In this document: positions 2,921-55,243 of the stretch, piece after piece
Layout: every line of letters begins with the position of its first letter
Numbering within the stretch: the first letter of the stretch is position 1
NCBI RefSeq assembly: GCF_954871325.1
Contig: NC_088779.1
Coordinates: 23,537,051-23,601,050, forward strand
From: Gordionus sp. m RMFG-2023
Lineage: Eukaryota > Nematomorpha > Gordioida > Chordodea > Parachordodidae
Length of the DNA: 64,000 nt
Direction: 5' to 3'
Program-made: the position numbers and the translations under genes
Notes under the pieces: generated by a model
Databases searched by the model: none
The model's input: the letters and a program-made list of their open reading frames with translations, nothing else
Told to the model about the DNA's origin: nothing

Positions 2921-2959
2921 TCAACATTCAAAGATCCAAAACAATACCACCTCCTATAG
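2921..2959 (+). CDS. Micro-exon of giant gene (NIQRSKTIPPPI)
   Basis: Follows TTGCAAG and precedes GTTAGA. The 39-nt phase 1-1 exon reads NIQRSKTIPPPI plus a junction Gly. It is the most upstream exon I can support, and its PPP ending resembles later exons. Confidence 0.45.
   Translation, partial: STFKDPKQYHLL

Positions 2960-55243: not shown

Follow-up and report, generated by a model that had tools for sequence, protein, structure and literature searches.

The DNA between positions 2921 and 55243 most probably belongs to a cluster of at least four paralogous genes, arranged in tandem on one strand. The window, which is the whole 64,000-nt stretch that was analysed (C5:23537051-23601050), has a GC content of about 22-33% per 2 kb; coordinates given here are window positions and negative numbers lie upstream of the window. 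An earlier note had described the interval as a single micro-exon gene of about 52 kb. In our judgement, a series of several related genes, probably encoding secreted, proline-rich proteins, is the better reading. The cluster would span some 82-84 kb, with its start at about -29 kb and its end at 53-55 kb. The interval covers the 3' portion of gene 2, the listed exons of gene 3, a dead first exon and gene 4. The exon field itself starts about 29 kb before the window and has several first exons within it.

Each paralogue would begin with a short first exon that encodes a signal-peptide-like N-terminus and ends in phase 1. Short phase 1-1 exons, in a set that varies between genes, would come next and code mostly for basic, Pro-rich pieces. 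In genes 1 and 2, and weakly in gene 3, the next part would be a 3' module, composed of a Pro/Lys or ..IPP exon, a short intron and one or more acidic-type exons. A Cys-containing terminal exon appears to come last in gene 1 and possibly in gene 4. The conserved 5' flank, which is clear in three of the four genes, is taken as the promoter. We infer that the genes of the cluster are transcribed and spliced and that their products, which would be disordered and modular, are secreted. The products most likely belong to the surface layer, a gland secretion or the host contact of a parasitic worm, and we make no choice among these three.

Four homologous first exons with signal-peptide-like frames were found, at -28973, -9373, 15820 and 46047 (copies 1 to 4). 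Their frames are MLYYIYLMILFNIVIPTTNACGETK, MICYYIYIMIFLNIYIPT, MIRHCICLMILLLIIIPRTNAC and MMLYYYIYYIMIFSSKIILIRTNTCGEV, respectively; they are hydrophobic, and their signal-peptide-like character was judged by eye. Each first exon ends in phase 1 and is followed by a GTAAGT donor; the lengths, 76, 55, 67 and 85 nt, differ by multiples of 3. The elements of this group that lie in the window are the following.

15718-15819, plus strand: conserved 5' flank of gene 3, presumed promoter, with homologous flanks at -29.1 kb and -9.5 kb.
15820-15886, plus strand: putative first exon of gene 3, assigned by first-exon homology, with the signal-peptide-like frame MIRHCICLMILLLIIIPRTNAC, ending in phase 1.
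41345-41426, plus strand: degenerate first exon, which has no start codon and has in-frame stops (held-out profile E 1.2e-5).
46047-46131, plus strand: putative first exon of gene 4 (group G5), with the signal-peptide-like frame MMLYYYIYYIMIFSSKIILIRTNTCGEV, ending in phase 1 (held-out profile E 4.2e-6).

Compared pairwise, the first-exon regions 1 to 3 share 69-73% identity, with E values of 7e-10 to 4e-26; copies 1 and 3 align over 277 bp with 70% identity and an E of 2.8e-21. A profile built from copies 1-3 finds copy 4 and the dead copy, aligned over 41330-41445, at the held-out values given above, and the next of all its hits in 164 kb, on both strands, has an E of 0.54. Pairs of copies 1-3 agree at 71-75% of positions over the 150 bp that precede the ATG and at 71-83% within the exon, compared with 51-63% over the first 120 bp of the intron. 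Sixty random pairs of 150-mers, used as a control, gave a mean of 48% and a maximum of 58.8%. Two of the three intron comparisons (59% and 63%) exceed this maximum, and flank and intron thus differ by degree, not absolutely. For copy 4, the identity to the others is 59-60% upstream, hardly more than the random maximum; the exon has 67-77% and the intron 46-61%. The pattern is that of putative first exons of tandem paralogues, clear for three of them and weaker for the fourth.

Two other candidates in these regions were set aside. The segment 41400-41426, considered as a micro-exon, was rejected, as it is the end of the degenerate first exon. A gene start with a signal peptide at 4172-4292 was judged less likely than an AT-rich intron end before the exon at 4239, as no hit of the first-exon profile falls there. 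A repeat, 14226-15572, lies just upstream of the first exon of gene 3 and has an inverted copy at 74.2-76.1 kb, in pieces that are 91-98% identical.

The 3' module is best seen by comparing genes 1 and 2. Gene 1 lies outside the window and has a terminal exon, AETCAPICNPRSHKRHKNL followed by a stop, at -14925, before the next first exon at -9373; no AATAAA was found in the 325 bases checked for this exon. Gene 2 contributes the following segments to the interval.

2921-2959, plus strand: possible micro-exon (NIQRSKTIPPPI), open in phase 1-1 between AG and GT, with the weak donor GTTAGATT; it is absent from the scored list.
3576-3644, plus strand: short exon of 69 nt, open in phase 1-1, with a strong donor.
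4239-4292, plus strand: basic Pro/Lys exon (INRTCKPRPKPKTSIPP) that would open the 3' module; its positional counterparts lie at -15698 in gene 1 and at 36520 in gene 3.
4375-4476, plus strand: acidic exon A1, with a weak donor; Ka is lower than Ks against A2 and A3.
5080-5193, plus strand: acidic exon A2, a duplicate of A1 and A3.
5574-5690, plus strand: acidic exon A3; a genome search with A3 returned only A1-A3.

The duplicated exons A1-A3 have Ks values of 0.61-0.84, Ka values of 0.24-0.40 and Ka/Ks ratios of 0.29-0.66, computed from about 21-23 synonymous sites per pair. The plan of the 3' module is common to genes 1, 2 and 3, in which a Pro/Lys or ..IPP exon and an acidic-type exon are separated by an intron of 64, 82 and 68 nt, respectively. 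With a profile of A1-A3, the acidic exon of gene 1 ranks first among untrained ORFs (E 0.058, next 3.6), and the gene-3 exon at 36630 is not among the best 8 untrained matches. When the gene-1 exon is added to the profile, the exon at 36630 becomes the best untrained match of 8904 ORFs, a weak one (E 0.74, next 1.5). The case for the 3' module is thus good for genes 1 and 2 and tentative for gene 3, and the acidic module was not recognised in gene 4. Three other elements adjoin these exons. An interspersed repeat occupies about 4480-4711 in the intron after A1, and 41 of the 43 genome matches listed fall on it. An (AGAA)n array of about 69 copies, 3787-4064, adjoins the 3' exons of gene 2. In the long gap after A3 there is a remnant of a hAT dimerisation domain, 11412-11732 on the minus strand (PF05699, E 0.0002).

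These 3' ends bear on another reading, namely that the whole is one compound locus with alternative promoters and first exons, whose overlapping transcripts have downstream exons in common. Since the four first exons all end in phase 1, each could splice to any downstream exon, and the terminal exons of genes 2 and 3 were not found, which suits such a locus. However, gene 1 ends in a terminal exon of its own, which has a stop, and the 3' modules are repeated, which would be needless if they were common to the transcripts. We consider a compound locus rather improbable.

Gene 3, within the row of separate paralogues that we prefer, has the following listed exons, all on the plus strand.

18571-19810, plus strand: array of 7 exons, five of which code for Pro-rich peptides starting with GY; tandem-repeat rows were recorded at 19200-19501 and 19472-19527.
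18571-18597, 18711-18743, 19114-19158, 19284-19319, 19448-19483, 19636-19680 and 19775-19810, plus strand: the members of the array.
18836-19020, plus strand: two decayed copies inside the array, seen by eye; the copy at 18836 has lost its donor, and the one at about 18970 has lost its acceptor and has a stop.
20164-20208, plus strand: micro-exon, open in phase 1-1 between AG and GT.
20343-20489, plus strand: polyproline exon of 147 nt, with the same phase and borders.
20656-20679, plus strand: micro-exon of 24 nt, with the same phase and borders.
21309-21350, plus strand: micro-exon, with the same phase and borders.
23651-23698, plus strand: micro-exon, with the same phase and borders.
28766-28825, plus strand: short exon after the hAT element, with the same phase and borders and a weak donor.
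30616-30699, plus strand: exon of 84 nt, for which the scorer preferred a shorter end at 30648.
36032-36067, plus strand: possible micro-exon, with the weak donor GTTATT.
36520-36561, plus strand: first exon of the putative 3' module (YDICDKATTTIPP), open in phase 1-1 between AG and GT.
36630-36713, plus strand: exon in the place of the acidic exon (GSSYGSLVPSECLTVNKDAANEARDVN), with a weak donor and a weak profile match (E 0.74).

Both the array at 18.5-19.8 kb and the exon array of gene 1 at -22.6 to -20.9 kb show exons copied together with their intron borders. Exon copies, phases, first-exon homology and decayed copies are all observed in this DNA. In the proposed mechanism, an exon copied along with its intron borders would become a new module, as in the 18.5-19.8 kb array, and a module whose splice site is lost would die; the frame would be kept in both cases. 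Exon gain, loss or skipping would change the length of the protein and its charge pattern. The earlier note had proposed that exons could be duplicated or lost without a change of frame, and the phase 1-1 copies, the array and its decayed members support this. A hAT-type transposon lies within gene 3 at 24926-27468 (PF14372 in 26245-26649), and a shorter relative of its ends is found at 130-877, with 87% and 92% identity.

The decayed members would also suit a locus that is mostly a graveyard, with one or two working genes and many decayed exon copies. In addition to these members, the degenerate first exon at 41345 and the hAT element at 24.9-27.5 kb in gene 3 fit this description. The openness of the listed segments is no argument against it, as they were chosen to be open. 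The conservation of flank and exon over intron, and the Ka below Ks in A1-A3, do argue against it, and we regard a graveyard as quite improbable beside a row of working paralogues.

Gene 4, the last of the putative paralogues, starts with the first exon at 46047 and continues as follows.

47485-47517, plus strand: micro-exon, open in phase 1-1 between AG and GT.
47765-47821, plus strand: short exon, open in phase 1-1 between AG and GT.
49398-49484, plus strand: very basic Lys/Pro/His exon, open in phase 1-1 between AG and GT.
52747-52949, plus strand: possible terminal exon with a Cys-rich start (GCVPKCVPRRTC), a stop at 52949 and an AATAAA at 52993, a hexamer that is easily met by chance in AT-rich DNA.

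In 144 kb, the motif C.P.C.P occurs on the plus strand only at 52752 and in the terminal exon of gene 1, and it does not occur on the minus strand; the looser C.P.C is found 5 times on the plus strand and 3 times on the minus strand. Because C.P.C.P is confined to these two exons, the one at 52747 may be the terminal exon of gene 4. It could instead be an internal exon, 52747-52827. A possible terminal exon at 55221-55243 has an AG and a stop as its sole support. Just to the right of the cluster, at 58425-59328 on the minus strand, a gene for the ribosomal stalk protein P1 was recognised by eye from its acidic tail ending MGFG/LFD, which we take to be universal. It has several exons, with at least one phase 0 and at least one phase 1 intron.

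With all genes described, the single gene of about 52 kb, running from about 2.9 kb to 55.2 kb, can be judged. The 26 listed exons are all phase 1-1 and on one strand, so they could be joined in frame on paper. Against this stand the first exons inside the interval, at 15820 and 46047, another one before it at -9373, the terminal exon of gene 1 and the repeated 3' modules. Furthermore, the first-exon profile has no comparable hit at 2.9-4.3 kb, where the signal-peptide-like open stretch from 4172 also fits an AT-rich intron end before the 4239 exon, and exons of the same style run upstream to -22.6 kb. We find one gene very improbable. Nor was its proposed count of 30 or more exons confirmed, as 26 internal segments are listed and the field has several first exons. 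The earlier note would have given way to transcripts from separate, unrelated genes; the genes do appear separate, by sequence rather than by transcripts, and they are related. Their borders are hidden because, with the listed first exons ending in phase 1 and the listed internal exons in phase 1-1, exons of adjacent genes fit together in frame on paper. This is a trap for annotation, and gene borders have to be sought from promoters and first exons, not from the reading frame. Recognised exons are absent from the long stretches of -3.3 to 2.9, 5.7 to 15.8 and 37 to 46 kb. Weak donors were noted at 2921, A1, 28766, 36032 and 36630.

The short segments themselves were counted and tested. Inside 2921-55243 there are 26 internal segments that have AG before them and GT after them, a length that is a multiple of 3 and a phase 1 frame free of stops; as these very features guided the picking, by eye or by the scorer, their count alone proves nothing. 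Segment lengths are 24-147 nt, with 15 of the 26 at or below 51 nt and 8 at or below 36 nt. The same holds for the whole cluster, where 45 of the 45 internal exons listed are short, symmetric and multiples of three, as they were chosen to be. The pieces encoded are rich in Pro; those in the middle are often basic, and in genes 1 and 2 those toward the end are acidic. That the peptides stand out from the background, as had been claimed, holds for proline, which makes up 16-30% in four gene groups versus 3.0% in open windows outside exons; the picking was itself guided in part by Pro-richness, and among the 17 gene-3 segments counted there is one whose position was off by 8 bases. Six exon peptides matched 0 Pfam families at E up to 1, and the window had 0 Rfam matches at gathering scores.

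A test on untrained DNA used splice-site weights taken from the window exons and applied them to the flanking 40 kb on each side, with a sum score of at least 18 and no condition on length or frame. On the plus strand of the upstream 40 kb, 17 segments were found. Eleven have a length of 0 mod 3; of these, phase 1 is open in 9, phase 0 in 5 and phase 2 in 1. The minus strand gave 5 segments, one of them open in phase 1. In 40 dinucleotide shuffles put to the same test, the phase 1 mean was 0.47 and the maximum was 2. Other cut-offs on the upstream plus strand gave 25 segments with 12 in phase 1 (score 16) and 10 segments with 6 in phase 1 (score 20). Downstream, the plus strand gave 7 segments, with 4 open in phase 0, 2 in phase 1 and 0 in phase 2; for the 2 segments of the minus strand these figures are 1, 1 and 2. 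The octamer GTGAGTCA occurs 13 times on the plus strand and 0 times on the minus strand in 144 kb; 12 of these sites coincide with donors of the exons listed. We conclude that the micro-exon field codes for protein and reaches upstream of 2921. The earlier observation of short phase 1-1 segments bordered by AG and GT is thus borne out, with 26 verified in the interval and the signal recurring in the untrained upstream 40 kb. Chance open segments in AT-rich DNA are hardly credible as an explanation: single short segments are unremarkable, and phase 0 segments are also common on the plus strand of the scored list (32 versus 43 in phase 1), perhaps as one splice pair can be open in two frames, but the untrained-DNA and shuffle tests, the strand bias of the donor octamer and the homologous exon copies all speak against it.

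The genome searched comprises 287.06 Mb in 267 contigs. The queries were the array at 18.5-19.9 kb, exon A3, first exons 1 and 3 and, from gene 1, the exon array, the acidic exon and the 3' end; none gave a convincing member off the locus. These searches are insensitive, as one first-exon query missed first exons 2 and 4, the other missed 4, and the gene-1 acidic exon missed A1-A3. A search with the donor-flank pattern gave 4 matches, all in the 18.5-19.8 kb array, and its control gave 2. For the off-locus match of the array query at C1:25220449, no such pattern was seen in the 2 kb beside it, and at two off-locus C1 matches of a first-exon query the first-exon profile finds none. Another query gave three more off-locus matches.

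Other observations concern the lineage, which is probably that of a hairworm rather than a flatworm or an aphid. A nuclear copy of cox1 keeps Lys and Met residues, which we take to be conserved, under the invertebrate mitochondrial code 5 and not under the flatworm code 9. Nuclear contigs have 48 matches to mitochondrial cox1, and long perfect inverted repeats were seen by eye just upstream of the copy described (L012). A paper on the mitochondria of hairworms has called long inverted repeats embedded in coding sequences exclusive to Nematomorpha (PMC10380579). Among the matches listed by our literature search, which left most subscription journals outside, no paper on nematomorph micro-exons was found.

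The earlier note had likened the exons to those of schistosome micro-exon genes (MEGs) and of aphid bicycle genes, and as a likeness in gene style this is supported. Alternative splicing of the central exons is one mark of schistosome MEGs. They have a signal peptide at the N-terminus and, between longer introns, many symmetric exons of very small size, most of them multiples of three; some of the genes lie in tandem clusters, and they evolve fast (PMC10526429, PMC4350168). A hydrophobic or aromatic stretch with Trp follows soon after the signal peptide (PMC10526429), and MEGs are apparently restricted to platyhelminths (PMC4350168). The cluster, too, has very short symmetric exons in multiples of three (45 of 45 listed, chosen for this), a style for which the untrained upstream DNA test gives independent support, and its four hydrophobic first-exon frames, judged by eye, may be counterparts of the MEG signal peptide. 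There is no Trp in the four first exons, the part that was compared. Most MEG exons, as described there, are 15 bp, whereas the 45 listed here are all at least 24 nt. In view of the cox1 copy, the platyhelminth origin of MEGs does not apply either, and the cluster is likened to MEGs by gene style, not by sequence.

Salivary-gland expression is one mark of aphid bicycle genes. They have many small internal exons starting at codon position 2 and N-terminal signals (PMC9168663). Bicycle genes have been reported from aphids, phylloxerans and scale insects, with some homologues lacking the CYC motif (PMC9168663). Small internal exons starting at codon position 2 are also present here, in exons that were chosen for phase. 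A C..Y..C pattern is found in 0 of 45 single exon peptides, and the origin differs from the aphids, phylloxerans and scale insects in which bicycle genes occur. Aphids have TTAGG telomeres, whereas the telomere arrays here are of TTAGGG type: the genome has 3,835 overlapping matches to (TTAGGS)5, those listed being mostly TTAGGG, and 0 exact TTAGG 25-mers. The clusters of vertebrate SCPP and salivary proline-rich protein genes are also tandem, with short symmetric exons that encode secreted, Pro-rich or acidic, disordered proteins. They differ in being vertebrate and in the phase 0 of SCPP exons, and no homology is expected.

On present evidence, the cluster works in the style of schistosome MEGs and aphid bicycle genes, and it is filed as neither because the lineage differs and no motif of either was found in the pieces tested. 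One tentative and somewhat unlikely proposal is that a micro-exon system for secreted modular proteins arose in hairworms separately from those of schistosomes and aphids, and that in it a tandem cluster, exon copying and exon skipping produce protein variety at the interface with the arthropod host. If transcripts confirm the cluster, a micro-exon family of secreted proteins would be present in another animal lineage, probably the parasitic Nematomorpha, and the convergence of parasites on phase 1-1 micro-exon secreted genes would become open to comparison.
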